From Petasospora fabianii (lineage: Eukaryota > Ascomycota > Saccharomycetes > Phaffomycetales > Wickerhamomycetaceae), in NCBI GenBank assembly GCA_022641835.1, contig CP048715.1, positions 1,178,001 through 1,242,000 of the forward strand: a stretch of DNA of 64,000 bases, in the 5' to 3' direction. This document shows positions 15,401 through 50,008 of this stretch, in pieces; position 1 is the first letter of the stretch; each line of letters begins with the position of its first letter. The translations under genes and the position numbers were made by a program. Under the pieces are notes generated by a model that saw only the letters and a program-made list of their open reading frames with translations, did no database searches and was not told the origin of the DNA.

Positions 15401-15565
15401 AAGGGTGTTGACGCTTCCGAATTGGCCAAGAACGCTTCCACACATATCGGTGGTAAAGCTGGTGGTAAGGGTAATGTTGTTCAAGGTATGGGTGACAAGC
15501 TTGCTGGTATTGATGAGGCATTGAAGGAGCTTGAGACTCAATTGAAGGAAAAGCTTACCATCTGA
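12469..15565 (+). CDS. ALA1: Alanyl-tRNA synthetase (cytosolic and mitochondrial forms), two exons
   Basis: Exons are 12469-12567 and 12740-15565. The spliced frame runs ...[20 protein letters not shown], matching other Ala1 proteins across the junction. The enzyme charges tRNA-Ala. The class II core is clear ([60 protein letters not shown]), as are the editing-domain zinc motifs HTGTHIL and FCGGTH and the C-Ala domain ending in [17 protein letters not shown]. Two in-frame ATGs occur in exon 1. The ATG at 12469 adds 21 residues ([20 protein letters not shown] then T), basic and without acidic residues, a good mitochondrial presequence; total 974 residues. The ATG at 12532 gives a 953-residue cytosolic form (S. 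cerevisiae Ala1 is 958). One gene serving both compartments is known for yeast ALA1. CTG encodes the invariant Leu of KPIFLG. Confidence 0.96.
12568..12739 (+). other. ALA1 intron
   Basis: A 172-nt spliceosomal intron in phase 0. The donor is GTACGT at 12568, the branch site TACTAAC at 12716-12722 and the acceptor CCCAG ending at 12739. Removing it joins WTAKK to VRQTFFDYF, which aligns with homologues; reading through meets stops. Confidence 0.93.
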
Positions 15566-24798: not shown

Positions 24799-27126
24799 TC
24801 AAGTCTTTCTTGAAGGTCTATAATCTGGTCTGACTTCTCGTCTAGCAGCCTCTTTCTTTTGTTTTAAGTGGAACTTTGTCAAAAGTGGAACGTGATCGGA
24901 TGGGAAATGGGCATTTGGTAGACCAACGTAATGGCTCAAATACCCTGGATCAATTTGACCAAGCAACCCACGGACGGACAAGTTGTATGGTGTGTACCAG
25001 ATATAATCCAACACATCTGTGAATGATGGCGTGAAATTTGTGAAAGGCAACTCTCCAATGTTATCATATGCTGATCTCAAGTTCAACTTATGACTGAAAC
25101 CTTCAGAAGTGAACTTACCATAGTCTCTGCCCCTGATATCCTCGTGGTCCTTACAGAAACCGTTTGCCAAGAGTCTGTAGACGGCAGAGTGCAATTGCGA
25201 GTTGAAATCACCACAGATCACCACTGGTAAGTTCTTCATGAACGAATCGTCGGTAGTCTTCAACAATTTCTTCACCAAGGCTTCAATCTCCTCGAGCAAA
25301 ACACCAACCTGAACGGTCTTGACATCGTTCAAAGCTGGATCCCAGTGCAAATGAGTGTTGGCAACAAGAACCTGTTGACCGGTCTCAAGGTGCTGGAATA
25401 CAGTCACCAAACCAATGTTGTCACGACTTTGCAATCTGTTAAAGACATCGTCCGACTTCTTGTACTTCTGAGAGTTCAACACAATTTGGGTATACTCCAA
25501 TGACTTCTTTTCAGCTAGTGAGAACTTGGAGTACTTGTAGAAAGTGGCACAACCGTCAACCTTCTTAGCATCCTTTTCATTCATTCTTCTTGCCCTGTAC
25601 TTGGCATGGAACATACCTCTGTAACCAGCATCAGCCATCACTTTCAACCAATATTCCTCAAATGACTGAGTCTCCACCTCCTGCAAACAGATGATATCGG
25701 CATTTGTGTCAATAATCTGTTGTTTCAAAGATTCTCTTCTGAACTCCCAGTTCAAGGCCCAAGATGGTGTATAGCTGTACATCTTTGCGGTAGCGTAGTG
25801 TTGACACAAGATATTGTAACTCAGCACTGTGAAGCTTTCCTTCTCCTCTTGTTCTTTTTCAGCCTGAGTTTGCTCATCATCATCGTCAGCATCAGCGACT
25901 AGTTCACCGTCATCCTTCAATTCAATCCATTGTCTCTTTGGCGGAGGTGATCCCTTTGGAACATTGTCTCTGAGATGCATGATCAGGGCCTTAGTTCCCT
26001 TCTGGGCAATTAGCTTTGCAAATTCCAGATTGAAGTTTGGGTTTCCCTCAATACCTAAGAAGTGCAACTCGAACAAATTACCAAACTCGTATGGCAAAGT
26101 CGTCAAGTGATTATCAAAGAGATACAAGTATCTCAAGTTGAACAAGAGACCCAATTCTGGGGGAACAGAGGTCAATGCGTTGTTTGAGAGATCCAAGACT
26201 CTCAAATACTTCAAATTCTTGATCGCTGGTGGAATTTGACTCAACTTATTTCCATTAAGATACAACTTTGTCAAGAATTCATACTTGAACAAGTTTGGTG
26301 ACAAGTTAGGAATGCTCTGTCCACTTAGATCCAAACCCCCCCACAATTGATCAGGAAATGCCTTAGACGTGATTCTTGGAACTGTGTAGTCATCAATGTC
26401 ATCATCATTTTCGTTGGTATCATGAGAGGTTTTCTTATTATGTAGGAGCGCTGGATTAGTGTTAGATTGAGAGACCTCAAGAGACTGTTGGTTATGATCA
26501 GCATCTAATAGTTGTTTGGTGACTTCCACCAAGGACATCTCGACATATTGTGACTGTTGTTGTTGACCTTGTTTGGCTCTTCTTGATGCTATAGCAGCGT
26601 GTCTAGCGTAGAAATGAGTCATCTTGCTAGACTTTCTAGTCAATTCAATCAATTGCAACTGATCTTGCCAATGCGCAAGCATTGTGAGAGATGGGTCAAG
26701 TGGAATAGACTGATTTGATAGTGGCTGCTGTTGTGGCTGCTGCTGTTGTTGCTGTTGCTGTTGCTGCTGCTGTCCGAGATGTGGTTGAATAGACCTTTGT
26801 TGAGGAGTCTGGGATCTGAATTGTCCTTGGTACAATGTCTGGGCCAGAAGCTGTGTAGAGCTTATCGAAGCATCATTGATTGGCTGCTGCTGCTGCTGCT
26901 GTTGTTGCTGTTGTTGCTGCTGCTGCTGTCCTATGGTGTTATTAAGAGACTGGAAAAGATCGTTAAACTGGATCTGTGTACCCCCAGGGTTTGACTTAGG
27001 AGTCTGCTGTTGTTGTTGCTGCTGCTGTTGCTGCTGTTGCTGTTGTTGTTGCTGCTGTTGCTGCTGCTGCTGCTGTTGTAACAGGTGCTGGGCAGGACTG
27101 ATGCCCTGATAGCCCTGTATGTTCAT
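24799..27126 (-). CDS. CCR4: Ccr4, catalytic deadenylase of the Ccr4-Not complex
   Basis: From ATG 27126 the product is 775 residues (S. cerevisiae Ccr4 is 837). Three glutamine-rich tracts fill much of the first 150 residues. A leucine-rich-repeat domain (about 265-390; LDLSNNALTSVPPELG, LYLFDNHLTTLPYEFG) binds Caf1/Pop2. The EEP nuclease domain follows (about 435-765) with SYNILCQHYAT, CLQEVE, NTHLHWDP, GDFNSQ, LDYIWYTP and SDHVPLL. It shortens mRNA poly(A) tails in the cytoplasm. The open frame extends three codons upstream only to a GTG, so the ATG is used. The LRR insertion separates it firmly from Ngl-type relatives such as NGL1 2 kb away. Confidence 0.96.
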   Translation of the reverse strand: MNIQGYQGISPAQHLLQQQQQQQQQQQQQQQQQQQQQQQQQTPKSNPGGTQIQFNDLFQSLNNTIGQQQQQQQQQQQQQQQPINDASISSTQLLAQTLYQGQFRSQTPQQRSIQPHLGQQQQQQQQQQQQPQQQPLSNQSIPLDPSLTMLAHWQDQLQLIELTRKSSKMTHFYARHAAIASRRAKQGQQQQSQYVEMSLVEVTKQLLDADHNQQSLEVSQSNTNPALLHNKKTSHDTNENDDDIDDYTVPRITSKAFPDQLWGGLDLSGQSIPNLSPNLFKYEFLTKLYLNGNKLSQIPPAIKNLKYLRVLDLSNNALTSVPPELGLLFNLRYLYLFDNHLTTLPYEFGNLFELHFLGIEGNPNFNLEFAKLIAQKGTKALIMHLRDNVPKGSPPPKRQWIELKDDGELVADADDDDEQTQAEKEQEEKESFTVLSYNILCQHYATAKMYSYTPSWALNWEFRRESLKQQIIDTNADIICLQEVETQSFEEYWLKVMADAGYRGMFHAKYRARRMNEKDAKKVDGCATFYKYSKFSLAEKKSLEYTQIVLNSQKYKKSDDVFNRLQSRDNIGLVTVFQHLETGQQVLVANTHLHWDPALNDVKTVQVGVLLEEIEALVKKLLKTTDDSFMKNLPVVICGDFNSQLHSAVYRLLANGFCKDHEDIRGRDYGKFTSEGFSHKLNLRSAYDNIGELPFTNFTPSFTDVLDYIWYTPYNLSVRGLLGQIDPGYLSHYVGLPNAHFPSDHVPLLTKFHLKQKKEAARREVRPDYRPSRKT
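26727..27079 (-). repeat. CAG/CAA trinucleotide tracts encoding Ccr4 polyglutamine
   Basis: Three stretches of mixed CAG and CAA codons (about 26727-26771, 26883-26928 and 27003-27079), the longest encoding over 20 glutamines. Interruption by CAA slows slippage, but length variation between strains is expected. Confidence 0.9.
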
Positions 27127-27367
27127 GATGCTCACGACGGTATGGTGATTGTCTTAGTGGCTGTGATTCGTATATAGGCTGTTGCCAGCAGCGGTTAAGT
27201 GTGTGTCTTTGCGAGTGGATGGGCGTGAAATTTCTATATGCGAAGGAGATAATGAACCGACGAATCGTGGGGTAAGCTATGGTGGTGTGTAGCGCTTGTC
27301 TGTGATGCTGGCCACCTCCTGTTTTCCTCTTGTTACCGCCGTCCAAAACCTTCGTCCATACACGAGA

Positions 27368-27385
27368 TTCGCGAATCTTCGCGAA
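27368..27385. promoter_or_regulatory. Two TTCGCGAA palindromes upstream of CCR4
   Basis: Perfect octamers at 27368-27375 and 27378-27385, exactly 10 bp apart (one helical turn), about 245 bp upstream of the CCR4 ATG. This matches the paired arrangement upstream of PRP45. Confidence 0.5.
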
Positions 27386-28000
27386 CTTGGTGGGGAGAAC
27401 CGAGGGCGGCAGATGACAGAGAACCGGGGGAGGGGTGTCCAGATGTATCACCAATTTTCCTTATCGGCCTTGCAAACACTACGTCTCTTGGCAGACATTG
27501 AGTATGTGATGTCTGCGAATCATCAAAGATCCCCTCACTATATAGAATCTCTGACCATTGTGTACTTGCCAAGCACTACAAATCTGTGGACTGGGGTTTC
27601 CAGCGCTATAGATCTCATTCAAGGATCCAGCTGGCTCAGCGCGTCATGTGTGGAGGGCCAGATCAGGGCCCTCCATTTGACAAAGGCAAGCAACTACCAA
27701 CGCATCCACTGTAGTGACTGAATTTTACGGTTGACATATCCTTCGGAAATACCTTTGATGTGTGTGTGAGTTGGGTTAGTCATAAATGTGGCATTGTAGA
27801 TCAAAAGTTTGAGAACTCTGAAAGAGAAATGCTGATAGAGAGCTACCAAGTGTTGGTGACCGTAACGGGAAGAAGAGCAGGAAAAGTCGTTTGAAGACAT
27901 GTAAATCGTGGTTCTGCTCCTGAAAGTCTTCACAGGCTGTTTGGTAGATAAGTGAATTCACCTCCCAGCTGACGATGTCTCACACGATTTCTGGAACTGA

Positions 28001-35549: not shown

Positions 35550-37040
35550 TCAGGGGAGGGCAATGTTGGACGCAGGTGAATAGAAGTGGCTCCAGGGGTT
35601 CATCACTGCGAATTCGTAGGCAGTCAACAGTATCATGAACAGAGCATCCAACCACATGATCTTCACAATTGTCAATGACTTATAGGCCCAAGAGATTCCA
35701 AGGATTAAGCACCCAACAGGTACCCTGAAACCCACACGTGCCCACTTTGGAACTGGATGGATACCAACCGGGGTCTCGTCCCTGTCTGCATATGAAAGCG
35801 CTGTCAGAGCGCCCAGAGCAATAAGAATACCACCGTGGAAGAACATAAGGACACCAAAGTCTTCTTCTTCAAGATACTTCTCTTCGTACTCACTCAAATG
35901 TGCACCAGCATCTCCTACAATTAACAAGGAGGCTATAGCAACAAAATGGGCATAAATAAACACCATTGCTGTTGTCGCAGACCTTCTCAATGCATGTGTT
36001 GCCTTGAACGAACCATCTTTGGATGCATAAATGCCCATAAACATGAATGCAGTTACCAGAACAGAGATGCCTTTGGCAAGATTGGTATTCCAACCAGATC
36101 TTAATGGCGATCCCGCCACAATCGAATAGAGAAATTCACCCAATGCAATAATATAGAATGCATGGAATCTCTCCTCTTCGTGCTCAATGTTGAGAGCCGT
36201 GGAATGAGTCAGCTTCATGACGTTCTTCTTCACCCATGGATGGACATTGCAGCAGAAGTGAACCTGCTCAATAAATAGAAGCAGTGACGCAAACACAACC
36301 ATACCCCAGATGCTGTGAATGAGTAGAATGAAAAACCAACATGCACCGAAGATGATCGCACCCAACCCGAACACTCTCATTTGAAGGCGGTGTTCGGGAA
36401 TGAAGAACGAGTATACAACGATGATAATACCAGTAGACGCACGAGCCAAAAAGTAAGCAACAATCGAAGTCAGCAATGGAGTCCTGTTCTCCAGATCATC
36501 AACAAAGAGACAGTTGTTGTCGTAGACAACCAGCAGCATCAAAATCCAAAGTACAAAGACTCTCTGGATTATGTCATCGTTGAAGTAATAGTTCATGAAG
36601 TCCTTAAGGTCTGCCCAAATTGTCCAAGCTGGAATAAACACCAGAACGTATTTACCCAAACTGGCCCCCGTATGCTCCTCGATCGCTGCACTGGCCAAGT
36701 TTGCTGCAATTCCAACGTAGACCAAATCTAAGAACAACTCGAGTCTTCCTGATGTTCTCTCGTGCCTGGTGCGGAACAGCTTACCATTGTGAAAGTAGTT
36801 CAGAGCATATGGCCTGGTGAACCATGGATTCTGCGGTGGCGCATCGATGAATTCAAATTGGATGTCACCGTACTTGTTGACAAACTCTTGCATCTCAGGG
36901 TCTGCTGTCTGACCCAATGTCTCCGCAACTCCCGGCATCGTGCTGGAGTCTTCTGTATCATGGTGGTCACCACTCACACCTGGCGATATGGAATTCTGAA
37001 CCTCACCAGCTTGATCATTCTGCTGTCTTTTGAGTAACAT
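35550..37040 (-). CDS. LtrA (low temperature requirement A) family membrane protein
   Basis: A 496-residue protein. About 95 polar N-terminal residues precede the family hallmark RHERTSGRLELFLDLVYVGIAANLA, and about nine hydrophobic segments follow to residue 485. LtrA proteins occur in bacteria and many fungi; the name comes from a Listeria mutant and no biochemical activity is settled. S. cerevisiae has no obvious counterpart. Start ATG 37040 is the first in frame. Its gene lies in the same direction as KRE5, about 190 bp downstream end to start, and its 5' end borders the 9.3-kb gene desert, so it would be the pericentromeric gene on this side if that desert is a centromere. Codon use looks like its neighbours. 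Confidence 0.82.
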   Translation of the reverse strand: MLLKRQQNDQAGEVQNSISPGVSGDHHDTEDSSTMPGVAETLGQTADPEMQEFVNKYGDIQFEFIDAPPQNPWFTRPYALNYFHNGKLFRTRHERTSGRLELFLDLVYVGIAANLASAAIEEHTGASLGKYVLVFIPAWTIWADLKDFMNYYFNDDIIQRVFVLWILMLLVVYDNNCLFVDDLENRTPLLTSIVAYFLARASTGIIIVVYSFFIPEHRLQMRVFGLGAIIFGACWFFILLIHSIWGMVVFASLLLFIEQVHFCCNVHPWVKKNVMKLTHSTALNIEHEEERFHAFYIIALGEFLYSIVAGSPLRSGWNTNLAKGISVLVTAFMFMGIYASKDGSFKATHALRRSATTAMVFIYAHFVAIASLLIVGDAGAHLSEYEEKYLEEEDFGVLMFFHGGILIALGALTALSYADRDETPVGIHPVPKWARVGFRVPVGCLILGISWAYKSLTIVKIMWLDALFMILLTAYEFAVMNPWSHFYSPASNIALP

Positions 37041-37339
37041 GTCAGTGAATCTCTCGCTTCTTTGACGAGCCCGTGTACCTGCAGGGATGTTTCTCTTGGT
37101 ATTTGTTTTTTAAGAAAAGTCGGCGATAGCGCGGAGCACGCCCGGCATTACCGGCGCGATGCCAATGGACATTGCTCCCTTCATTAGGGCCCACAACCAG
37201 TGACGCAAGATAAAGTGAAAGCCACAGTTACATCCATGACGTACTATGAGAGGCATAATGTCATAACTCTGCCTCGTATATCCCTTTGACGCACTGATAG
37301 TTTTATTTATCGCCGTTATCCTCATATTAGACGGGCTCA

Positions 37340-38300
37340 CCCGTTGAGTTAGGAAAGTGATTTGTAAAAATACATCTAGATTCCATGATCAAAGCGGCAC
37401 GAAGGGCTTCTATATTCCATAAACATCATACACTACGGAGAAGGGGCATATATGGCTACAGCAGAGTGCTAAACAAGAGAGGAGAGGTAACAAGTTGGGC
37501 AACAATATGGCAACAGGAAAACGGCACGGCAACCAACACACTGATATTTGGAAGTTATCCAAATTCAAACACCTGCGTACCATAGCGACGAGACAGAATC
37601 GAGACAGAGCTTGGTCTTAGAAGTCGCTGGGTGAGATCATCAGCAATCTGTTCAGCACTTAAGCTTCAGAGATGTACTGCTCATTGAAAAAAAAAAAAAA
37701 AACGCGCAGAATACAGGATGACTGATGAGGTTATCACTAAGCACACAGCTGATGAGCAGGAGGCCCTCAACGTTTCCAGAACAAGGCGAAGCCGATGTAC
37801 TTCCTTGTTTCTACCACCGATGGCCATGGCTTCGACTTCTAACACAGAGAAGCTAGGATTTCCAGTCTAAAAGCAGATGTACCAGTCAATATCACATATT
37901 CCGCACTGGAGAGACCGAGTATCGGTTCCCATAGTCAGAGTCTGTGTAGTCGGTCAAAGCAGAGTTGCAGCAACAGAAGCAGGGTACTCAAAAAGATATC
38001 AAAGTGAAGCAGCAAGAAAATTACAAACACGGATAGCCTAATGCTCCATGGTGGGCTTCTGTAAGGTATATATGAGTAAAACTAACGTGTTGCTTGCGTA
38101 CAAAAAGTTCGCATTCAATCACCGACGAACAAGAGCGACTATCAACGAGCCATCAAGTTAAGGATTCTCAAGCAGAAGGCAGTATTATCATGAGCACGCA
38201 CGATAATGCATAATGCAGTAGGCTTAGAGACACCCTATGTGAATTTGGAGAACAAGGACGGTGCCCATTTTCAGAAAACTACCCGTTACTTCCAAGAAGA
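37340..38300 (+). repeat. Left arm of the large inverted repeat
   Basis: Matches the reverse complement of about 44095-45150 in many blocks. Examples: 37376-37399 with 45097-45120, 37515-37526 with 44901-44912, 37786-37807 with 44563-44584 (22 of 22 identical) and 38262-38273 with 44122-44133. Between blocks the arms differ by substitutions and small indels, so the duplication is not recent. Confidence 0.85.
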
Positions 38301-38345
38301 CATCGTAAATTGAGCCACGCACACAACTACTCAGCCAGAAGTAAG

Positions 38346-38860
38346 TGTTGCACCTGCAAGATATAATGCTTGGGTTTGGGTGCACCCATGATTACAATGG
38401 AAGCAGGCAAAGCAGTACATTCGGGTAAAGAGTATATACGATATAAAAAGACCAAGTTATGTGGGAATGTTGAATATTGGTTGTTAAGCACTATCACTAT
38501 TGCCTATTACCATTGTCTATCACTATTGCTTATCACGATTTACATATTGGTTGCCAAACGCTAACTTATTTCTGTCTTGAAGTGATACTGGTTCTTACCA
38601 TGTTCTATCTGTTGAAACTATAAGTAGACCAAGGTTCTGCCCGCATAACTTGGTCTTTCTCTGCTTTATATACTCTTTGCCCTGAATGATTCAACACAGA
38701 ACTTAGCCCATTTATATTTTTCAGCAAGTAGGACGTGGGGAGTAGCAGCTTAACCCCCATGACAACATAGTAGACAGTAGCAGGTTAGAGTAACAGGTCA
38801 CAACCATTACCGAACAGAGGGACCTTCAAAATCAAAAACATTCTTCCGGGCGCTACAATT
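38346..38860 (+). mobile_element. LTR fossil, forward, split by a later reverse LTR
   Basis: A forward-orientation LTR relic whose left part is 38346-38467 and whose right part resumes at about 38697. Sequence either side of the inserted copy joins up when compared with the whole LTR at 40519-40848 (AAGTTATGTGGG ... CAGAACTT). Old and incomplete; no coding part. Confidence 0.7.
38468..38696 (-). mobile_element. Solo LTR fossil nested in another LTR, reverse
   Basis: Begins TGTTGAATATTGG and ends ATTCAACA, the terminal pair of this family, and is about 229 bp. It contains the family's GAAACTATAAGTAGACC and TTTATATACTC blocks. It lies inside an older forward LTR. Short relative to the 330-bp copy, so incomplete. 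Confidence 0.75.
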
Positions 38861-38910
38861 CTCCAGGCGTCGGCGATTATTCCTTCTGCTGTTTGTCATA
38901 TGTCTCTCAC

Positions 38911-39060
38911 TGTTAGATATTGGTTGTCAAGCACTAAGTTATTTCTGTTTTGAGGTCATGCACCTACTCCCTACGTCCTGCTTGTTGAAACAATAAATAA
39001 ACTCTTCACCTGAAAAATACTGCCTTGCCTGCCACACTGTAGTCATGAGTATATCTGAGA
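38911..39060 (-). mobile_element. Partial LTR fossil, reverse
   Basis: Starts TGTTAGATATTGGTTGTCAA and shares TTATTTCTGT and CTTGTTGAAAC blocks with the other copies; its far end ends in a TAGTCATGAGTAT block. Diverged and incomplete. Confidence 0.6.
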
Positions 39061-40127
39061 AGCTGTAGTTAGATCGTAATGGTTCAATAGACTGTTCGTC
39101 AAGCACGGGTCACATGAGCTGGGCTAGATACGTCATGAGACAGTATGATTTCATAACATAAAAGTAAATCCGAAGGAGAAAGCCTCTGTTAGATAGATGT
39201 GCGACGTCATTCTACTACATAAAGCTACATCAATTCATGCATTCCCTGATGCTATTACTGTCAACCCTCCTAAGGTGAGTAAAAATAAGAACTTCGGGTC
39301 CCAATCGCCCCAAAAAGACAGATGTCGATGGTATGTGCACTGCTGTCTTACAGCGGCTGAATGGATGGATTCTTGACTTGATCGAGGTGCTGGTTCTTGT
39401 CGAGCCAAGGAGGTCTGGTTGGCATAATCAGATGATTCCATCCTTATGCAAGACACAGGCAGAGGAATGTGTCCAAGGGTAACGCTTACTACAGCAAAGA
39501 AAGGACTTGGAAGCTTTATAGTTTAGCGAGTGGGGCGAAGTAGCACGGCCAACCAAGCGAGTATCGTCATAGTAGTCTCGTGACACTTGAGCCAACAGAG
39601 AGATGACAGATAATCTAATAGGCTCGCAATAGAACGGCAGCTCCGAGCAGCATGGAGAGAGACACACTGCACTAAGCAGCGCGTGGATAGTTACAGGCTA
39701 GAACTTAAACCAGTTTGTTTCATCTTCTACAGTGATCTTAATAGTTGTTTCTCTTGGGGATCGATTAGGAGATCATATATCAGAACTAGAAAACGGTCTG
39801 AATTGTTGTTGAATATATGGCCAGAACAACCAAAGGCAGTGTAGCGAACATTTGACACGAGAGGAATTAATGTTTGTGTCGCACAATCCAACCGAACGAG
39901 TGATAATCATGTTATCCTCCCTACGTTTTCTTTTTGAGGTACACACTGGTCTTGGGGATGAACAAATAGGTGAGACGCTTGTTGTGGTGGCCTACATACT
40001 GCCCCTGTCTGTTTGGTGTACGCAATTTTACTACGAGGCCAGTGCCATTTGTGTGCTTCAACTTTTTTTCACTATTGGTCGCCCCTATCTTGAATACTAG
40101 TTGTCAAGCACTTACTTTTATTTGTCG

Positions 40128-40417
40128 TGTTGGACCAGATGAATCTGGCAGATTAGACCCACGGCAGACATACTTACAGACGGAAATGTTCAGGGGAAAC
40201 AATCAAGGTGGGTATTCGGTAAAGAGTATAAAAGACAAAGCTATGTGGGCAGAACTTGGCCTACTTATAGTTTCAGCAAATCGAAAGTGAGAAGTAGTAT
40301 CACCTCATAGTTTTACCTGAAGACAGAAATAAGCTAGTTATCCTTGAAAACCAAACTGTAACAGTGATCAGCAATAGTGATAGGCAATGGTTAATAGGCG
40401 ACAACCAATATCCAACA
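40128..40417 (+). mobile_element. Solo LTR fossil, forward, subfamily 2
   Basis: About 290 bp, from TGTTGGACCAGATG to AATATCCAACA. Its first 80 bp match the terminal part of the reverse copy at 42738-43019 very closely, which defines a second subfamily. It lies against a short piece of an older reverse LTR (about 40091-40127). Looks whole as an LTR; no internal region. Confidence 0.78.
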
Positions 40418-40518
40418 TTATCGACCTTCTATGTGTTGGTCGGCTATCCACAGAAACAAATGACAGCCATCTAATCATACCACGATGATTGAAGTTGCCT
40501 ACTTACTTACCGTCGGTT

Positions 40519-40848
40519 GTTGGATCATGAGTATCTGGGTTTTGACGTCAGAACTCATGATTACAGTAGTAGACAGATCAGAGTAGTTTATTCAGGGTGA
40601 AGAGTATATAAAGCAGAGAAAGACCAAGTTATGTGGGCAGAACTTGGTCTACTTATAGTTTCAACAAATAGAACATGGTGAGAACTAGTATCACCTCAGG
40701 ACAGAAATAGTGAAGTATCACCTCAAGACAGAAATAAGTTAGCGTTTGACAACCAATATGTAAATTGTGATAAGCAATAGTGATGAGCAATAGTGATAGG
40801 CAATAGTGATAGGCAATAGTGATAGTACTTGACATTCAATATTCAACA
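40519..40848 (+). mobile_element. Complete solo LTR with target-site duplication, subfamily 1
   Basis: A 330-bp LTR from TGTTGGATCATGAG to AATATTCAACA, flanked by the 5-bp direct repeat TCGGT at 40514-40518 and 40849-40853. It includes a TATA-like GAGTATATAAAGC, then GTAGACC-type blocks and tandem CAATAGTGATAGG units near the end. TG...CA ends and a 5-bp duplication fit an LTR retrotransposon, probably of the Ty1/copia class; the duplicated target makes it the best-preserved copy here. Confidence 0.88.
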
Positions 40849-41654
40849 TCGGTACAGTGTCCACTGTGACCTGCATTCACCCTACTTTGTCTTGTCTTGG
40901 AGCTATGCTGCTTCGCCCCATTTGGTATGTATAAGTAAGCCAACTTCGACCCACATAATTCGTATATGTCTGTCGTGCATTTTCGTTATCGAGTAACCAC
41001 ACCTTTGCTGCCACTTCTAATCATAAAATCTATTTAGTTAGAAAAGAACCTATATTAGACGTACCTACGCGGCCTGACACTTTGTAATCATGGCGTTCAA
41101 AGCCTCGTTCAAGAGTGAGCTTTTGCAGGTTCATCAGAGAAAGTAACACCAATTTTTGTTGCAGGAGTACCGTAACCGATCTAGTGCTAAAATCGACTGG
41201 TATCAGAGAGGTCAACAACTGGTGCAGCATTCAGATTCTAGCCTCGTGCTTCTCAAAGTGTTTTCCTGGTCTGAGTGGCAGCAAGGTGCAATGAATCAGG
41301 GTCATAGCGATCAGTGTCATCAGATAACACGGAAAGAGCCTGTGTTGAACTAAGAGGGCCCGGTTAGCATAGCCAGCAGATAGGGCAAGGCATGGGCCCA
41401 AGACAAGACAAGCAGGCAATTGTTCTCAGTGACCCGATGGTGTGACCGAAAGTTGCATTACCAGGCAAATCAGCAGTTCCGTAAAGAGTCCATAACAGCA
41501 CAGCAGCAGATGAACGCATGATAACAGACAAAAGGCACTAACAGTGCCGAAATGATAGGTTACAGCTCTAACAAGCATATACAGCAAGGCGTGGAGTTGG
41601 CGAGATGTAGCTTGCGTGGATACATAAACCTGTAGACCAGCAGCAGGTAGGTGA

Positions 41655-41950
41655 TGTTGAGTATTGGTTGTCAAGCACTATCACTACTGCCTATCACTAT
41701 TGCCTATCACTATTGATTATCACGATTTACATATTGGTTGTCAAATGCTAACTTATTTCTGTCTTGAGGTGATATTAGGTCTCAATATTTTTGACTTGAG
41801 GTGATACTAGTTCTCACCACGTCCTATTTCTTGAAACTATAAGTAGACCAAGTTCTTCCCACATAACTTGGTCTTTCTCTGCTTTATATACTCCTTACCC
41901 TTAATGCACTACTCTGTCTGCCTGCCACTACTGTAATTGTGTCTCCAGCG
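41655..41950 (-). mobile_element. Partial LTR fossil, reverse, subfamily 1
   Basis: Begins TGTTGAGTATTGGTTGTC, carries the CTATCACTATTGC tandem units, TTGAAACTATAAGTAGACC and CTTTATATACTCC, then fades after CTACTGTAATTGTG. Incomplete; no coding part. Confidence 0.75.
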
Positions 41951-42584
41951 GATCTTTGAAGACCCATTGGGACTCAACAGGTGAGGAAGGCTTTAAAAGT
42001 TGGTTTATATAGACTAAAGGGTTTCAGAAGCTGAAGCAGGTTCAGCAAGTTCAGACGCCAAAGTGTAACAGAGACAAAGGAAAACGATCAAGAGGAAAGA
42101 TATAACTCAGAGAGGGCTCACGGGAAGTTCAAGTAGGTTCAGCACAACATTGAGATGGAGAACACGAAACTAGCACAAGCAGCTATCCGTGCGGAAACAA
42201 AGAAGAGCTGAAAAGTTACAAACAGCACTAACCACGTCGATAGTAGTAGTCTGTTGGGGTTGACTACCATTATCAAACAGCTCCGTGGCTAGACCTCAGT
42301 TGAGCTGAAGAAGCAGAGCAGCGTGGCAGATGAGTAGACCCGATAGATGGTGGCATCAAAGGCAAGAAAAAATTTGGCCACTGTAGTTGCTCCACCTTAA
42401 GAGCATGCACTAAGATATCTGCGGAGACAGGAGACAGATGGCGAGCTTGATGAAATCCAAGGCTGTTGAAACTCGAACAGTACTGACCACAATTCAACAC
42501 TGATTTCCAAAATCATCTCTTGCTGCTTCTCGTGCCATGTGTGGATGATGAGGATCTGGCTACCAAAGTCTGATGCACTCATGA

Positions 42585-43150
42585 TTTCTAAGGGGCAGGC
42601 AAAGCAGTGTATTGGGGATAAAGTATTGAGCAGCTAATTGCAGTAGTGGCAGACAGAGCTGTATATTAAGGTAAAGAGTACATAAGACAAAGAAAGACCA
42701 AGTTATAAGGGCGTGGTGAATATTGGTTGCCCTGATCTGCTGGATATCGGTTGTCAGGCCCTAATCTTTTACATGTGATTAGTGCCGTCTGTTGTTAATT
42801 GCCTTTTCTACCCATTCTGACTGTCATGGGATCATGCTGCTCCACCCCATGTTCTATTTGTTGAAACTATAAGTAGACCAAGTTCTGCCCACATAGCTTT
42901 GTCTTTCTCTGTCTTTTATACTCTTTACCCAATACACGCCTTGATTGTTTCCCCTGAACATTTCCGTCTGTAAGTATGTCTGCCGTGGGTCTAATCTCCC
43001 AGATTCATCTGGTTCAACAGGCAGAGGCTGGTCTACTTCAGCTTCAGCAATTAGAACGTGGGGCGAAACAAAATGATCCCCAATGACAAGACAGGATAGC
43101 AGACAGTTGACAGGCTGACATTAATAGGTCACAGTAACAGATGACAATCA
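42585..43150 (+). mobile_element. LTR fossil, forward, split by reverse LTR material
   Basis: Left part about 42585-42712 (GGCAGGCAAAGCAGTG to AAGACCAAGTTATAAGGG) and right part about 43020-43150 (CTGGTCTACTTCAGC to ATGACAATCAATATCC). It resembles the split copy at 38346-38860 both in sequence and in the site at which it was interrupted. Confidence 0.65.
42738..43019 (-). mobile_element. Solo LTR fossil nested in another LTR, reverse, subfamily 2
   Basis: About 282 bp, from TGCTGGATATCGG to TGGTTCAACA, the reverse-oriented relative of 40128-40417. A further short reverse LTR end (TGGTGAATATTGGTTG, about 42712-42737) abuts it. Looks nearly whole as an LTR. Confidence 0.72.
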
Positions 43151-43341
43151 ATATCCAGTAATTTCTCCCCTAAAGCGCCTTGTTCTTTGCCATAAACACG
43201 GGTGATGTGCCAGTGCTCCTCAATTGAACTCTTCACTGGCGCCGGTCTGCAACTGTTGCTGCCCATATGCGGTCTTTGTCAGCTTCCTCCGCATTCGCTG
43301 TGACTCGAGCAAATGATGTGTCCTTTAAGTCGTCTCTCTCC

Positions 43342-43691
43342 TATTGGATCATGAGTTCTGGCGTCAAAAGTATCTGGGTTTTGACGTTAGAAGTCATGAT
43401 TACAATGGTAGACAGGTCTTAGTCAGGGAAAAGAGTATAAACAACATAGAAAGACCAAGTTATGTGGGCAGGACTTGGTCTACTTATAGTCTGAGAAGAC
43501 AGATAAGAATTTTTCATGATATGTGTAAGTCTGACACATATCGTGAAACATTTACACATATCATAAAACAACAGATCATGAAACAAATCATGCAGGCTCT
43601 TAGTGATAGCTGATAAATAGCATGATAACAGGCAGACAGTACTAAGCATGTAGGCAATAATACTTTTGTGCTTGACAACCAATATTCAACA
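43342..43691 (+). mobile_element. Solo LTR fossil, forward, subfamily 1
   Basis: About 350 bp, from TATTGGATCATGAG to AATATTCAACA, with GAGTATAAAC, AAGACCAAGTTATGTGGGC and ACTTGGTCTACTTATAG blocks shared with 40519-40848. Ends slightly eroded; no internal region. Confidence 0.78.
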
Positions 43692-43904
43692 TATCTTTGC
43701 GTCCGGACCAGATAATCATGCCATAGACAAGGTGTTTAAACTGTAAAAAAACGTTAACCGTCTAGAGCAATCATCGCAGCTCATCACGAAGAGGAAGAGG
43801 TGTTGAGTTTAACACAATGCTGCACTGAGTCTGGATTCCACAGGTATCTTTGTGATGCTGAAGAGGCAGCATTGTTTCCGTAACTTGGTGTCAGGCTCAT
43901 AACC

Positions 43905-44038
43905 TGTTGGATCATGAGTATCTGGGTTTTGACGTCAGAACTCATGATTACAATAGTAGACAAATAACATGATGACAAACAAGTGGCACTAACCATGTAG
44001 ATAGTAATAGATTAGTGCCTGACAACCAATATCCAACA
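43905..44038 (+). mobile_element. Short solo LTR fossil, forward, subfamily 1
   Basis: Both ends are present (TGTTGGATCATGAG and AATATCCAACA) but it is only 134 bp, so much of the middle is missing. It borders the inner edge of the right inverted-repeat arm. Confidence 0.78.
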
Positions 44039-44094
44039 GGACTTACATCTGAGCTGAGAATTCATTTTGAGCACTATGTGCGAGGTTGACGGCT

Positions 44095-45150
44095 GTCATT
44101 TTTGTCTTCAGTGGGTTCAGTTCTGAAAATGGCATCCTCGGGCTCTTGTTGTCCTCCTATCTCAGCTGAGCGCTTGCCGTGTTTGACGTTTTAGGTCCTA
44201 CAGCATTATTATTCCGGTATTGCCTTCCTCAGTAAGTTCTGATCACGAAGGTGTGCCTTGCTTGACTGGAAAGTGTACGTAAACACCACCGTCAGTTCCA
44301 ATCTTACCCTACCACTAGCAGGGGCCCAGGGGCCCACCATTGAACGTTGGTCTTAAGGTATGCATGCTGCTTTCTTGCTGTTTTTTTTTTAGCTACAGTG
44401 TTCTGCTGCTGTTGTTGCTGACTATATTTGACCGACTACAAGACTCGGACTCCCTGTTAGGTATGTAATATTGACTTGTTCATCTGTGCTTAGTTGGAAA
44501 ACGTCACTTCAGCCCTTAGTTTTTACCTATAGGGCTGGAATCATGGCCATCAGCGGCAGAGCCAAGGAAGTACATCGGCTTCGCTTGGTTCTGCCTGGTT
44601 CTGAGAGTTTTGAAGGCCCCTTACTCGTCATTTGCTGCCTCCAGTGTTAACCTTGTCAGTCATACTGTTTTTCTATACCAGAGCCTATCCAATACATTAC
44701 TGGAGGGACCCTGACTCTGAGGCTCAAGTATGTGTCTACAGATTAACAGATTGCCGATGCTCTCACCCAGATCTGCTTGGTCTGTCTTGACTTTCTCTTG
44801 TCGCTAGGGTAGGGAGCTTGTTTCGACTTGGATTGACCTCCAAATATTCCTAGCTTACTGATGACTATGTCCATTGGTTACTGCACTTTGTTCGTTGCCT
44901 TGCCGTTTTCCTGGTGCGATATCATTTTGCCCTTGGTCACAGGGGTGCCCCCTGCTTATACTGTACAGTTACGTTGTATCTCCTGTCTTGTTTAAAGGTC
45001 TGCTGTTTGATCCCGTTTGTTCAGCTATAAAAAGAGCCCAAACTCGCTGCTTTTTCTCCGTGTTGTGTGTTCTTTATCGAGTGCAAATGCACCGCATGCC
45101 GCTGTGATCATGGAGTCTAGTTATTCTTTCAGAAAATTTCTAACTCGACA
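44095..45150 (-). repeat. Right arm of the large inverted repeat
   Basis: Reverse-complement partner of 37340-38300; see that entry for matching blocks. A poly-T run here (44381-44390) and a poly-A run in the other arm (37687-37702) are not in exactly paired positions, showing independent change in the arms. Confidence 0.85.
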
Positions 45151-46328
45151 TGCTCAGGTTCGTCTTTACCGCGGTTCCTCTTTGTGTAGCGCGATCTGCC
45201 CTTCTTTATTGTTTCCTTCTTCTTTGTGTCGCTTCTTCTTTGCGTCATACCATATTTGTGTCACTGGCCTAATGTATTCTTCTGCTGAAATTACGAGATC
45301 ATGCTTTCAAAGTCATGTTTTCAAGTTGCGTGGGACATCTATGGAGCATTTACGTTTCTTGATTACTGATGGTGATGTCGCTCTGGTAAGTGTGTCTTTG
45401 GAGTGGTGGGAATTCTTCCTCCTTTCAAGTGTAAGTGTAGCTGTTGCATCTTCTTTCAGGCTCGAACGTTTAACCTTTACTCAACCATAACTTATTTCTA
45501 TCATATGAGAGTTCTTTACTTCTTGTTTCATTCATTAAAGGCTGATTTCAATAATAGTGAGTGATCTAGCATAAAACAAAACAAGAAACGTTGTAGAATT
45601 GGCACTCACAAAATAAGCCGGATTTATTGTACGAGTGATATCCCCAGCACATAAAAGTAGATATTATCGGGGGAGCTGGTTAACAACAGCTGCAAACAAA
45701 GCCAAAAGTGACTTCACAAAAAAGGCTTTTCGATGATCATGAAGAAAATTACCTCTGGCATCTCCTTGCCGAGAACATGATGATAAATTATAGATTAACA
45801 AGGAAAATATTTCCAATTCAAACGTTAATTGGAGAGACGAAATACATGTTTAAAATAAATTCTTAGCCAGCATTGATTTTGGAAAATTACCTCCAAACAG
45901 CAAGAAATGATTCATCTCTAGTGTTATCTTAAAGTTAAAGCTAATCTCAATGGTAAAGTGGCTTCGATGGGGTGTCACCTTCAATCGCCTTGTTCACCGG
46001 AGTCTACCGATTTGAAGATCAAACATTTGAGTTGCTCTGCTTGACGGTGACTCACACTAGTTGACTGAAGATTAAAATCATTATATTGACAATGCGACAC
46101 ATCTGCTGTTGGCATAGAGGGAAGAATTATGCCAACTGAGAGCTTCATGTAAGGGCTGTTCTTAGCCGAAGAGGTTTATCGGCTCTACTTCCCAAAGCGG
46201 TTGCATCTGATCACGATAAGTGTTCCGCCATTTGGCGCGGAGCGCCACACTTTTGGCGCGCAGTGACTCGAAGCATGTAAAAAAAGGCGATTTCAACGAA
46301 TATCTCTATCCTTTGCCTCCCAGAAGGC
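45151..46328. other. Outer part of the desert upstream of BNA3
   Basis: No coding frame, LTR or RNA gene is supported. The last 130 bp before BNA3 contain TTTGGCGCG at 46231-46239 and 46252-46260. Confidence 0.55.
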
Positions 46329-47651
46329 ATGTTTTGGAGGTCATCTGCCCCTAAGCGATTAGTTCACAAGATGGCAAGCAAGCTCCCTTCACACAATCCC
46401 TACTTCAATGCCTCTGGGAAGGACATCTGGTCCCTTATCAACGAGTCGGCGGCAACAGCAGCCACGAAGAGCGATAGGGAGATTATTAATCTTGGGCAGG
46501 GTTTCTTCTCTTATTCTCCTCCCAAATTTGTCATTGAGGCCGCTAAGACTGCTCTTGACACACCTATGAACAATCAATATGCTCATACCAGAGGTAAGCC
46601 AACTCTTCTCAATGCCCTTGCCAAGACTTACACCAAGCGCTACGGTAGAGAGGTTAAAACTGATGAGATTTTGGTCACAACCGGTGCCAATGAGGCTCTG
46701 CTCACAATTTTGACCGGTTTCCTCCAAAAGGAAGATGAAGTGATTGTATTCGAGCCATTTTTCGATCAGTACATCTCCAACATTGAAATTCCTGGTGGAA
46801 AAGTCGTCTATGTTCCGCTCCACCCACCGGCTGATATGTCCAAGCGTAACGTCAAAGGTGAGGAGTGGGCCATTGACTTTGATGAACTTGAAGCTGCCAT
46901 CACTGAGAAGACCAAATTCATTCTTATCAACACCCCACATAACCCAATCGGAAAGGTCTTTAGCAGAGACGAGCTCACAAAAATTGGTGCATTGGCTGTG
47001 AAGCATAACATTCTTATCATCTCTGATGAAGTGTACGAAAATCTTTACTACGGAGATGAATTCCCAAGAATTGCCACACTTTCCCCAGAAATCAATGACA
47101 GAACTCTTTCCATCTTCTCTGCTGGCAAATCTTTTGCTGCCACTGGTTGGAGAATTGGTTGGATTATCGGTAACCCAGAGCTCGTCAAATATGCTTCTTT
47201 AGCTCACACCAGAATCTGTTTCTCCACACCGGCACCATTGCAAGAGGCCTGTGCTACTGCATTGTTGGAAGCTGGAACCAATGGGTACTTCGAGAAAACT
47301 CGTGAAGAATACCGTCACAAGTATGAGATTCTTACAAAGGTTTTCACGGAGCTTGGTTTGCCTTACACCATAGCCGATGGTGCGTACTACCTTCTCGTTG
47401 ACTTCTCGAAAGTGAAGATTCCCGAAGACTACCCTTATAATGACGACTTCAAGGACCGTGCCAAGGACTTCAAGACCGCCTATTGGCTCATCAACGAGTT
47501 GGGTGTCGTCACCATTCCACCTACAGAGTTTTACATCAAGGAGCACGAGCATCTTGCTGAGAACCTTCTTCGTTTCGCTCTTTGCAAGGATGATGAGGTT
47601 TTGGAGAAGGCCGTCGTCAGACTTAGAGAACTCAAGAAGTTCATTGTCTGA
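46329..47651 (+). CDS. BNA3: Kynurenine aminotransferase Bna3 (PLP-dependent, class I/II)
   Basis: A 440-residue protein (S. cerevisiae Bna3 is 444). It matches in INLGQGFFSYSPP, TTGANEALL, VFEPFFDQYI, INTPHNPIGKVF, IISDEVYENLYY and the PLP-lysine motif SAGKSFAATGWRIGW, then WLINELGVVTIPPTEFY. It transaminates kynurenine to kynurenic acid, draining the kynurenine pathway of NAD synthesis. The first 14 residues (MFWRSSAPKRLVHK) are basic without acids and precede a second in-frame ATG at 46371, so a mitochondrial and a cytosolic form are possible. It is the first gene right of the desert and convergent with RRP6. Confidence 0.95.
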   Translation: MFWRSSAPKRLVHKMASKLPSHNPYFNASGKDIWSLINESAATAATKSDREIINLGQGFFSYSPPKFVIEAAKTALDTPMNNQYAHTRGKPTLLNALAKTYTKRYGREVKTDEILVTTGANEALLTILTGFLQKEDEVIVFEPFFDQYISNIEIPGGKVVYVPLHPPADMSKRNVKGEEWAIDFDELEAAITEKTKFILINTPHNPIGKVFSRDELTKIGALAVKHNILIISDEVYENLYYGDEFPRIATLSPEINDRTLSIFSAGKSFAATGWRIGWIIGNPELVKYASLAHTRICFSTPAPLQEACATALLEAGTNGYFEKTREEYRHKYEILTKVFTELGLPYTIADGAYYLLVDFSKVKIPEDYPYNDDFKDRAKDFKTAYWLINELGVVTIPPTEFYIKEHEHLAENLLRFALCKDDEVLEKAVVRLRELKKFIV

Positions 47652-47815: not shown

Positions 47816-50008
47816 TCACTTTTTCTTTTTGTTGGCAAAAGAAGAAGTCTTACCTTGATGCATCCTGCTCTGTTTCTTTGCAGGTCTTGGTCCTTCCGAC
47901 TCTTTGGAATATGGATCGAAATGGTCAGACTTCCTCTTTTTATCATCTTTCTTATATGTCGGCTTGGCCATCACATTCGGAGCTGCCTTGTAGTCAAATG
48001 CTGCGCCGGTCTGTTTGATTCTTTTCTTATCGGCAAGGTTACCTGTTTGGTTATTCTGCTTCTTCTTCAAGACCACAATATCCTCAGTATCTTCAAACAT
48101 TCCCGCATTCGCATTGATAGTGTTCTCCACGTTTGAAACATTGGCAGCCATCTCATCATTAGGCTCATCCACTTTTTCATCTGACGCATCGATCTTCAAC
48201 AAGACGTTGACATTAGCCAACTTTTCATTTATCAGGTTCTTGCGCTCATGCAACTGGTTCGTGTTTTCAGAACTATTAGACTTAAGCATTGGTCCATCAA
48301 GAAGGCGAGATGATGAGGAGAACAGCTGCGAATGAGAAACTGTTGTGTCCATCTCATCAAAAATGGCCTCGATCTTTTCGACATCACCGTGGGACAAGTC
48401 CTCCCCTGTCGGCTTCAAGTCAGCAGTCACGTCGTTGTATAACTCAAAGTCTTCACGTTCGGCATCCTTCAAGCATTTGCTGATAATCTCTGCAATGACT
48501 TTGCAGTTCTTGCGAACATGCTCCGTTAGAGCATTTCCTGAAGCCAACACGGATGCAGGATCAGTTGGTGAAAGCTGTGCTAAGGATACCAGGAGCTGGT
48601 TAGGCATGATATATCTCGGTGACTCATCTTCCTGACGTGCAATCTGGTCCCTCCAATTGTATAACTGCTCAACAATCTTCGACCTTGACATCGGTAAGTT
48701 GTACTGATAGACAAGACGTTTCCATGGCTCATCTCTCTCACCAGGGGAGTATGTGTTGGGCTGATTAATGAGAGGTTTGAATTTTGTGTACTCAAATCTT
48801 CTGACAGCAACGTTTCTCGATTCAAAAAGGACCTTATCCAGCTTCTGGGATTCAATCAGAGTGTTCTTAAGCTCATCAAAGATGTAAAGCAGGAAGTGTG
48901 TGTCCGATCTTGCATATTCCCTCATTGGTTTGGTCAGTGGACGTATTCTCCAATCTGCAAGCTGATATTTCTTAGACGTCTTGAAATGGGCAAATCTCTC
49001 AAGCAAATATGCCAAACTGTGCTTCGGGAAACCAAGCTGCTTGGAAGCGTGATAGGTGTCAAACAGACTGACAACGTACAGGCCAAGGTCCCTCTGCAGC
49101 CAGATGATATCCATGAATGCACCATGGAAGACTTTTGTGATGAGAGGATCAGTAAAGACAACATTAAGCGTGTGGAGTTCGTGACGAAGAGCAAGAGTGT
49201 CGATGAGCCAGTCTTGATCCCTGGTGCTGATCTGCACCAAACAGACGATACCGTAGTAAGTTCTGTAGTCGTGGTGTTCAAGATCAACTGCAATCTCTGT
49301 TGCCTCTTTCAACGACTCTAACATGTTGTTCAGAACCTCCACTGTATCTACCCAGATGGCCTCTGTAGAGTCCCAGTCTCTAAACTTGATTGGTTCTGAC
49401 GGCGAGAGGATGGCTTCGTTGTAGTCCTGTTGCATGATTTCCTTTTCGTAAGGTTGTGGATAGTGTGAAGGGTCCTGTTCGGTGCCCTCTGTCAGTTGAA
49501 GAACCTCCTTTAGCGGGGCCAACGCATGCGGCTTGGACTTCAGCAAGGGCTGGAATGGATGTGACTCCGAGTTATCAATGGGGATGGTAAACTTGGATTG
49601 GGGCTTCTCCATTCTTCGTGGCGCTCTCTCTGATGTGCTGAGTGAGTTCGAGTCATCAAGGTAGGTCATCGAATTCTGGGTAGATTCCTTCTTTGTGCCC
49701 TTTTTGATCTCATCGAAGGCAAGGTCTGATTTCTCGAGGAATGTGTCTAGAAAGTTTCCGAGTGCACTCCAAGATTCCTTGATGGACTTATCGTCAACTT
49801 CATTGATCTCTGACGACTCAACAGAGGAGACAAGTGAGTTTATCATGCCAAGTATCTTCGTTGATGAGTCTGATACCGAGTCTGCGATGTTGTGGTCCAG
49901 ACTGCGGTAGAAGTTGATGTCATTGGAGGCAAGCCCCGAGGCAGCACGGATGACTGGGGCGAGCTTAGGGAGCACGTTCTTCACCACAGATGAGGGCGAG
50001 TCAGACAT
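47816..50008 (-). CDS. RRP6: Rrp6, nuclear exosome 3'-5' exonuclease
   Basis: A 730-residue protein (S. cerevisiae Rrp6 is 733). The N-terminal PMC2NT region (about 10-110) binds Rrp47. The DEDD-Y exonuclease (about 215-390) has AVDLEHHDYRTYYG (D-E), VFHGAFMDIIWLQRDLG and YARSDTHFLLYIFDEL (Y and D). The HRDC domain (about 440-520; LYNWRDQIARQED) and a Lys-rich, exosome-binding tail ending in FANKKKK follow. It trims snoRNA, 5.8S and aberrant transcripts in the nucleus. In S. cerevisiae RRP6 is YOR001W, adjacent to CEN15. Confidence 0.96.
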   Translation of the reverse strand: MSDSPSSVVKNVLPKLAPVIRAASGLASNDINFYRSLDHNIADSVSDSSTKILGMINSLVSSVESSEINEVDDKSIKESWSALGNFLDTFLEKSDLAFDEIKKGTKKESTQNSMTYLDDSNSLSTSERAPRRMEKPQSKFTIPIDNSESHPFQPLLKSKPHALAPLKEVLQLTEGTEQDPSHYPQPYEKEIMQQDYNEAILSPSEPIKFRDWDSTEAIWVDTVEVLNNMLESLKEATEIAVDLEHHDYRTYYGIVCLVQISTRDQDWLIDTLALRHELHTLNVVFTDPLITKVFHGAFMDIIWLQRDLGLYVVSLFDTYHASKQLGFPKHSLAYLLERFAHFKTSKKYQLADWRIRPLTKPMREYARSDTHFLLYIFDELKNTLIESQKLDKVLFESRNVAVRRFEYTKFKPLINQPNTYSPGERDEPWKRLVYQYNLPMSRSKIVEQLYNWRDQIARQEDESPRYIMPNQLLVSLAQLSPTDPASVLASGNALTEHVRKNCKVIAEIISKCLKDAEREDFELYNDVTADLKPTGEDLSHGDVEKIEAIFDEMDTTVSHSQLFSSSSRLLDGPMLKSNSSENTNQLHERKNLINEKLANVNVLLKIDASDEKVDEPNDEMAANVSNVENTINANAGMFEDTEDIVVLKKKQNNQTGNLADKKRIKQTGAAFDYKAAPNVMAKPTYKKDDKKRKSDHFDPYSKESEGPRPAKKQSRMHQGKTSSFANKKKK

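Follow-up and report, generated by a model that had tools for sequence, protein, structure and literature searches.

Ty5-like LTR clusters at yeast centromeres

Clusters of Ty5-like LTRs lying in a large intergenic gap mark the mapped centromeres of several yeasts (PMC12711049). Ty5-like or LTR clusters have been described at each Hi-C peak region of C. sargentensis, with copies often more than 90% alike between chromosomes, and LTR sequence has been described at six of the seven Hi-C-mapped centromere regions of W. canadensis, in gaps of 2.2-9.3 kb (PMC12711049). The same source treats a primer-binding site matching the initiator tRNA as diagnostic of the Ty5 family. Whether Ty5-like LTRs give rise to centromeres or are simply inserted into them is debated there; the elements can accompany centromeres without creating them, and they are missing from one W. 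anomalus isolate. Additionally, yeast centromeres are described as changing structure quickly while keeping their place, and the direction of transition between centromere types is called hard to deduce (PMC12711049).

Here, we analyzed a 64-kb stretch of DNA (the window) from a budding yeast that uses the standard code. Judging from its layout, the interval 37041-46328 is likely to be a regional centromere of the type marked by Ty5-like LTR clusters. The sequence-only reading had called the interval a probable centromere, and we also rate this as likely, on the basis of a Ty5-type primer site together with the published Ty5-like LTR clusters at mapped centromeres.

Gene-free interval and flanking genes

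The interval and its neighbours are as follows.

37041..46328, no strand: gene-free interval, candidate centromere region (bounded by flanking ORFs; Pfam negative for 41 of 41 open pieces; six times the next gap)
35550..37040, minus strand: left flanking gene, LtrA-like membrane protein (PF06772, E=6e-32)
46329..47651, plus strand: right flanking gene, BNA3-like aminotransferase (E=5e-184)
47816..50008, minus strand: RRP6 (match to S. cerevisiae RRP6, E=9e-195)

No gene was found in these 9,288 bp with the ORF list and Pfam, in agreement with the earlier claim of 9.3 kb with no conserved gene. Twenty-five of the 52 listed ORFs were taken as genes, and the remaining 27 mostly overlap them; the ORFs at 1063, 1185, 15691, 27305, and 45110 lie outside this overlap and were also left uncounted as genes (of these, 27305 and 45110 were scanned and had no Pfam match). 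Among the 24 gaps between the 25 genes, the next-largest measures 1,551 bp, the interval being about six times larger. Its sole ORF of at least 100 aa (45110-45490) had no Pfam match, and none of the 41 six-frame stop-to-stop pieces of at least 60 aa reached the Pfam curated cut-off (best E 0.045; 40 pieces scanned at E up to 1 and one at E up to 0.001). The interval is not AT-rich, and CpG and RIP-type indices did not set it clearly apart from its flanks.

Housekeeping-type genes flank the interval on both sides; therefore, it does not look subtelomeric. The sequence-only reading had also taken RRP6, two genes away, as a sign of centromeric gene order. The gene was confirmed as the second to the right, after the BNA3-like gene, and it is presumably the gene right of CEN15 in S. 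cerevisiae. It is, however, the only neighbour in the window that fits a CEN15-type neighbourhood; BNA3, NUP82, LAS21, MRPL37, REI1, and SDH8 belong to YJL060-062 and YBR267-269 in S. cerevisiae, which do not lie near CEN10 or CEN2. The nameable genes of the 64-kb window include none of those that the main text of PMC12711049 names as flanking centromeres. With at most one centromere-linked neighbour, conserved gene order is a weak clue to a centromere.

LTR relics of the core

Searched against the 64 kb, a profile built from seven LTR copies gave 14 nhmmer matches at E<1e-6, every one of them lying within 38351-44038; the 54.7 kb outside the interval had none, even at E up to 1. Joining matches across nested insertions and deletions resulted in 11 LTR relics, listed below.

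38346..38780, minus strand: LTR relic G, split by F (nhmmer 38374-38467, E=2e-13, and 38697-38767, E=3e-7; start set by eye from the sequence, end from a second profile search)
38468..38696, plus strand: LTR relic F, nested in G (nhmmer E=1e-61; junctions)
38900..39050, plus strand: degenerate LTR relic I (nhmmer 38901-39017, E=9e-12; 38900-39050 by a second model)
40128..40417, minus strand: LTR relic A (nhmmer E=3e-62)
40518..40848, minus strand: solo LTR B (profile match; perfect 5-bp duplication at 40513-40517 and 40849-40853)
40888..41031, plus strand: degenerate LTR relic K (nhmmer E=3e-7; arm profile E=1.6e-4)
41655..41979, plus strand: solo LTR E (profile match; perfect 5-bp duplication at 41650-41654 and 41980-41984)
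42635..43158, minus strand: LTR relic J, split by H (nhmmer 42637-42712, E=2e-9, and 43020-43157, E=1e-6; junctions; both ends from a second profile search)
42738..43019, plus strand: LTR relic H, nested in J (nhmmer E=3.5e-61)
43342..43691, minus strand: LTR relic D (nhmmer 43361-43691, E=1e-63; envelope from 43342)
43905..44038, minus strand: LTR relic C, internally deleted, abutting the right arm (nhmmer, two pieces, E=8e-12 and 5e-11)

Between the arms, 2,634 of 5,694 bp are relic sequence. Six relics face one way and five the opposite way, which bears out the earlier description of a core of LTR relics in both orientations. TG...CA ends together with a 5-bp target duplication identify them as LTR retroelement sequence, the duplication being perfect in two of the seven copies examined (B and E). 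Two relics are nested in others (F in G, H in J). The interval thus combines a large gene-free intergenic region with a cluster of one LTR family that is absent from the neighbouring DNA, as in Ty5-like LTR-cluster centromeres. Copies are 73-93% identical, 97% being reached over 61 columns only, and no full-length pair is near-identical. The copies thus show no sign of recent activity, and a centromere no longer in use could present the same picture. Exact LTR-core stretches had no match in viral and prokaryote contigs, as expected for a yeast.

Searches for tRNA and other RNA families found none in 36800-46600 at E 0.1 and none window-wide at the gathering score, and ARAGORN with bacterial settings found no tRNA gene in the whole window. 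These results suggest that the LTR nest is not a landing zone at Pol III genes.

Putative Ty5-type primer site

One LTR is directly followed by a candidate primer site.

43894..43904, minus strand: putative Ty5-type primer-binding site directly after LTR C (exact 11-mer)

The site matches 11 nt of what is presumably the complement of the initiator tRNA-Met anticodon arm, and it is the single match in the 64 kb at up to one mismatch. It adjoins one of the seven LTR ends whose flanks were printed, that of LTR C, which by its primer site would be a 5' LTR. A match at up to one mismatch occurred anywhere in the window in 56 of 100 shuffles, and the weight of the site therefore lies in its exact match and its direct contact with the LTR end. 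No gag or pol relic was found at the Pfam curated cut-off in any of the 41 open pieces of the interval. The relics thus retain no coding sequence by which a copia-type gag-pol could be recognized, as would be the case if they were solo LTRs or non-autonomous elements.

Facing arms

The LTR core is bordered by two arms.

37343..38346, plus strand: left facing arm, non-coding (inverted match to the right arm, score 351 against a shuffle maximum of 54)
44041..45149, minus strand: right facing arm, non-coding, its outer end (45023-45118) weakly LTR-like (inverted match; LTR profile 8.3 bits)

The two facing repeat arms of about 1 kb that had been noted earlier are real (1.0-1.1 kb) and diverged. 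Aligned in inverted orientation, they agree in 675 of 902 columns (74.8%), with 59 gaps. The local score is 351; the highest score was 54 among 300 dinucleotide shuffles and 42 among 59 control windows, and the direct orientation reached 27. Inverted-repeat centromeres have near-identical facing arms; at this identity and with so many indels, these arms are not maintained as an inverted repeat. We also considered the arms as paralogous genes and rejected this reading because mismatches were spread over the three phases (83/77/67) and only 14 of 59 gaps were multiples of three.

The evidence on the origin of the arms points in two directions. Probes for LTR termini were not significant on the arms (141, 307, 293, and 421 of 500 shuffles scored equally high), which argues against a simple LTR origin, and an LTR-profile search of the left arm by itself found nothing at E up to 10. 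None of 4000 shuffled arms, however, reached the 8.3 bits of the right arm's outer end; this is suggestive of an old LTR, and so the arms may be retroelement debris. When inverted similarity was compared among LTR-free core pieces (12 pieces, 130 comparisons), the arm pair came out on top (z 65), and the only other pair to stand out joined the right arm with the stretch that contains relic K (z 6; next, z 3.0). Relic K also matches the arm profile, which ties arm to LTR. Of the 21 LTR copy pairs, 19 exceed the arm identity in the printed values (two of them with a value of 0.75), a difference that hints at age and gives no date. The arms are probably the oldest layer of the locus, either older related retroelement relics or an old inverted duplication.

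Centromere reading and alternatives

In the proposed mechanism, a Ty5-like integrase aimed at centromeric (Cse4) chromatin would have kept elements landing in the interval, LTR-LTR recombination would have excised the coding parts, leaving solo LTRs behind, and genes would have been unable to persist there. Cse4 might be positioned by the LTR sequence itself, by the arms and inverted LTR pairs, or by epigenetic means alone. Alternatively, the arms of an inverted-repeat centromere of the Komagataella/Barnettozyma/Candida type could have decayed and its middle been filled later by Ty5-like LTRs, a change of type in place. We regard this history as unlikely, and its probability is counted inside that of the centromere reading, of which it is a sub-case. 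It draws on the collinearity of the non-coding arms over 1 kb on either side of the LTR core, their low identity relative to the LTR copies, the negative terminus probes, the mixed structures described in Barnettozyma (PMC12711049), and a study that counts pairs above 75% identity as inverted repeats (PMC7263194). Against it stand the divergence and indels of the arms, the LTR-like right end, and the link through relic K, and centromeric inverted repeats in Cyberlindnera are described as formed only by retrotransposon parts (PMC12711049). If true, an in-place change would give a direction, with the inverted repeat first and the LTR cluster later.

A transposon graveyard of the ordinary sort, situated in a permissive intergenic region and playing no part in centromere function, appears rather improbable. 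Solo LTRs accumulate in yeast genomes, and the arms could be old element pieces; yet 11 relics share one gap with none in the other 54.7 kb, no tRNA genes were found in the window to attract Ty1/Ty3-type elements, and nested landings occur together with a Ty5-type primer site. A former or pericentromeric site, from which the active centromere moved away, is a little harder still to credit: the lack of near-identical full-length LTR copies would fit, and centromeres have moved by about 60 kb (CEN3 of C. sargentensis) and 250 kb (B. californica), but long moves are rare (one of 49 mapped Phaffomycetales centromeres; PMC12711049), and no second large gap was found from 2796 to 61340, with both window edges unbounded.

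A Saccharomyces-type point centromere within the interval is poorly supported and very improbable. Two CDEI-like 8-mers and one near-CDEIII site (one mismatch, at 42501) occur there, but the exact TTCCGAA core is absent from the interval. The near-CDEIII lies 271 bp from one CDEI-like site, on the opposite strand to it, and 3.4 kb from the second. Of all 100-bp stretches in the interval, the most AT-rich reaches only 75%, and it lies outside the arms and core. A full S. cerevisiae-type set (CDEI, AT-rich CDEII, and CDEIII in order and spacing) was not found in the interval, and searches for the W. anomalus 21-bp motif (up to four substitutions) and the doubled B. discipulorum octamer (up to two) gave no match.

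Comparison with known centromeres

Taken together, the locus is probably a centromere of an already known type, its function being read from sequence features. It resembles a layer cake, with a decayed LTR nest without coding remains and diverged arms. The layer common to the other centromeres of the same genome may be the one carrying function, and a comparison would show it.

Two facing arms around a middle region recall Barnettozyma and Komagataella. In Barnettozyma, however, the arms are 99-100% identical with no link to Ty5-like LTRs seen in the description (PMC12711049), in contrast to 74.8% here. The mixed architecture proposed by the sequence-only reading is not well supported, given this difference in identity and the LTR-like end of the right arm. 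Inverted repeats and retroelement pseudogenes in one centromere are, moreover, already published for Pichia kudriavzevii (PMC6053246). That system is similar in combining the two within one gene desert, and differs in its size (about 35 kb), arms of 7.9-14.5 kb at 99% identity, Ty3-type elements, and tRNA genes (PMC6053246). By layout, the locus is like Ogataea polymorpha, with Ty5-like elements and LTRs and no maintained inverted repeat (PMC12711049, PMC6053246, PMC8496258); the yeast analyzed here might not be a near relative of the methylotrophs. As in W. canadensis, LTR sequence lies in a kb-scale gap with no complete element (PMC12711049), although a 200-bp LTR-derived piece is described there, whereas here a nest of LTRs of up to about 350 bp each is accompanied by arms. 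Compared with C. sargentensis, where Ty5-like pseudogenes are annotated (PMC12711049), no coding relic was found here. The two are alike in that LTRs are clustered in one large intergenic region, together with non-functional Ty5-like elements in C. sargentensis (PMC12711049), where inverted repeats are made by retroelement parts (Hession et al. 2025, PMC12711049).

Gene content of the window

The window is budding-yeast DNA, densely packed with genes. CTG appears to be read as leucine in this genome, and CTG codons 304, 310, 315, and 358 of the RRP6 ORF, the four residues compared in an alignment made by eye, correspond to leucines in S. cerevisiae RRP6. Among the 24 intervals between the 25 ORFs taken as genes, one extended over 9,288 bp, from the end of the LtrA-like gene ORF at 37040 to the start of a BNA3-like gene at 46329, compared with 1,551 bp for the second largest. 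No genes were found in this gap, which contains 41 open pieces of 60 aa or longer, and none of these matched Pfam at the curated cut-off. RNA families were absent from 36800-46600 at E 0.1, and across the whole 64 kb no Rfam family reached its gathering score and ARAGORN identified no tRNA genes. These results support the earlier description of a gene-free stretch of 9.3 kb, which is not AT-rich.

37041-46328, gene-free gap
37343-38346, plus strand, left repeat arm
38346-38780, minus strand, LTR relic G, with relic F (plus strand) inserted at 38467-38468
42635-43158, minus strand, LTR relic J, with relic H (plus strand) inserted at 42712-42714
43904-43894, minus strand, exact 11-mer abutting the end of LTR C
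44041-45149, minus strand, right repeat arm

The LtrA-like yeast gene (35550-37040) belongs to PF06772, a family named for bacterial low temperature requirement A, and its product had no solved-structure relative at E up to 0.001. The window's second-largest gap contains an ORF of 138 aa (27305-27721) without a Pfam family. Additionally, a CCR4-like protein (24799-27126) combines leucine-rich repeats and an exo/endonuclease domain with long polyglutamine runs. The alanyl-tRNA synthetase ORF (12848-15565) begins at position 38 of the Pfam domain profile, and therefore an upstream start codon or first exon is probable.

LTR relics

When run against the 64 kb, a first LTR profile, built from seven copies, yielded 14 matches at E<1e-6, which all fell within 38351-44038. 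Since G and J are each interrupted by one nested LTR and C is matched twice, either side of a deletion, these represent 11 relics (A-K). A second profile, trained on the 14 matches, recovered the same set, with E-values for these members inflated by construction. The arms enclose 5,694 bp, and LTR sequence accounts for 2,634 bp of this interval. Sense strands, fixed by the primer-binding 11-mer at the end of LTR C, were minus for A, B, C, D, G, and J and plus for E, F, H, I, and K, in agreement with the proposed LTR-filled core in both orientations. Pairwise identity among the seven larger copies was 73%-93%, with one pair at 97% over only 61 columns, a comparison among copies that gives no insertion dates. 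Perfect 5-bp target duplications were identified for copies B and E; in the remaining five of seven they were imperfect (1 to 3 of 5 positions matching). Relics F and H entered their hosts at nearly the same point of the host LTR, to within about 2 positions, inside a conserved palindrome overlapping the LTR's most conserved 30-nt stretch (0.98 vs a median of 0.82), which suggests a preferred landing site.

The 11-mer, the complement of the yeast initiator tRNA-Met anticodon arm, occurred once in the 64-kb window at up to one mismatch. A match anywhere at this tolerance arose in 56 of 100 shuffles, and the weight of the evidence is in the exactness of the 11-mer and its position at the LTR end. 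It was absent beside the other six of the seven copies whose flanks were inspected. A primer-binding site of this kind is described as diagnostic of the Ty5 family in section 13 of Hession et al. 2025 (PMC12711049).

Facing repeat arms

The two arms are inverted to each other, with 675 of 902 alignment columns identical and 59 gaps. Their alignment score of 351 exceeded anything seen among 300 shuffles (maximum 54) or 59 control windows (maximum 42) and confirmed the facing arms of about 1 kb noted previously; in direct orientation the score was 27. The similarity is non-coding, since mismatches by phase were 83/77/67 and only 14 of the 59 gaps were divisible by three. It ends at an LTR start on both sides (G at 38346, by eye, and C at 44038). 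In both arms the similarity is lost at the same homologous point (38346; 44038-44041), and the adjoining LTRs are opposite in orientation relative to the arm.

The best match of the second LTR profile outside the core was in the right arm (45118-45023), where it scored 8.3 bits (window-wide E=0.03), starting at profile position 33 and 32-33 nt from the outer arm end. Across 4,000 shuffled arms the score never exceeded 5.3, and the highest value among 46 real flanking stretches was 3.7 bits. An arm profile in turn matched LTR relic K (E=1.6e-4), and the K-containing stretch scored 57 against the right arm, as high as none of 1,000 shuffles, this pair being chosen out of 130 comparisons. Because the left arm alone had no match to the LTR profile at E up to 10 and LTR-terminus probes performed no better than chance on the arms, a retroelement origin is only suggested, at least for the outer end of the right arm.

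Putative centromere

The gap probably represents a regional centromere of the Ty5-like LTR-cluster kind, given its anatomy, which is that of LTR-cluster centromeres, its housekeeping-type neighbours, and the lack of a nearby tRNA gene explaining the LTRs. On established knowledge, Cse4 chromatin would target element integration, and subsequent LTR-LTR recombination would leave solo LTRs. A decayed inverted-repeat centromere would be a sub-case of this reading. Less probably, the gap is a former centromere or a plain transposon graveyard.

Gene order had also been offered as a clue. RRP6 does lie near the gap and adjoins CEN15 in S. cerevisiae, but the other named neighbours correspond to YJL060-062 and YBR267-269, none of them known to lie beside a centromere. 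The gene order resembles that of the pre-duplication ancestor. For the PAF1 encoded in the window, the best PDB match was a full-length Komagataella entry, but over the first 100 residues, compared by eye, two short Saccharomycetales entries agreed better; together with the gene order, this very tentatively hints at an outgroup of Saccharomycetales such as Phaffomycetales. In the library searched, no paper was found that linked RRP6 or BNA3 to yeast centromere synteny. The centromere-flanking genes named in the text of PMC12711049 (sections 2-15, with further names in its figures) include none of the nameable window genes, and no mention of RRP6, BNA3, NUP82, LAS21, or REI1 was found in that text. 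The argument is of little worth either way.

Comparison with known centromeres

The sequence-only reading of a probable centromere is retained, with preference for the LTR-cluster type, but its mixed inverted-repeat and LTR architecture is weakened because the arms have diverged and may be linked to a retroelement. Inverted repeats with Ty3 pseudogenes were already described at P. kudriavzevii centromeres (PMC6053246). According to the text of PMC12711049, every C. sargentensis centromere region mapped by Hi-C carries Ty5-like elements and LTRs, and 6 of 7 W. canadensis centromere regions, located in gaps that span 2.2-9.3 kb, carry LTR sequence; the paper cites Scheffersomyces stipitis as a similar LTR/Ty-like case. 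O. polymorpha centromeres are likewise described as occupied by LTR and Ty-like elements (PMC6053246, PMC8496258). The gap shares the anatomy of the C. sargentensis, W. canadensis, and O. polymorpha regions and would be a locus of an already known kind.
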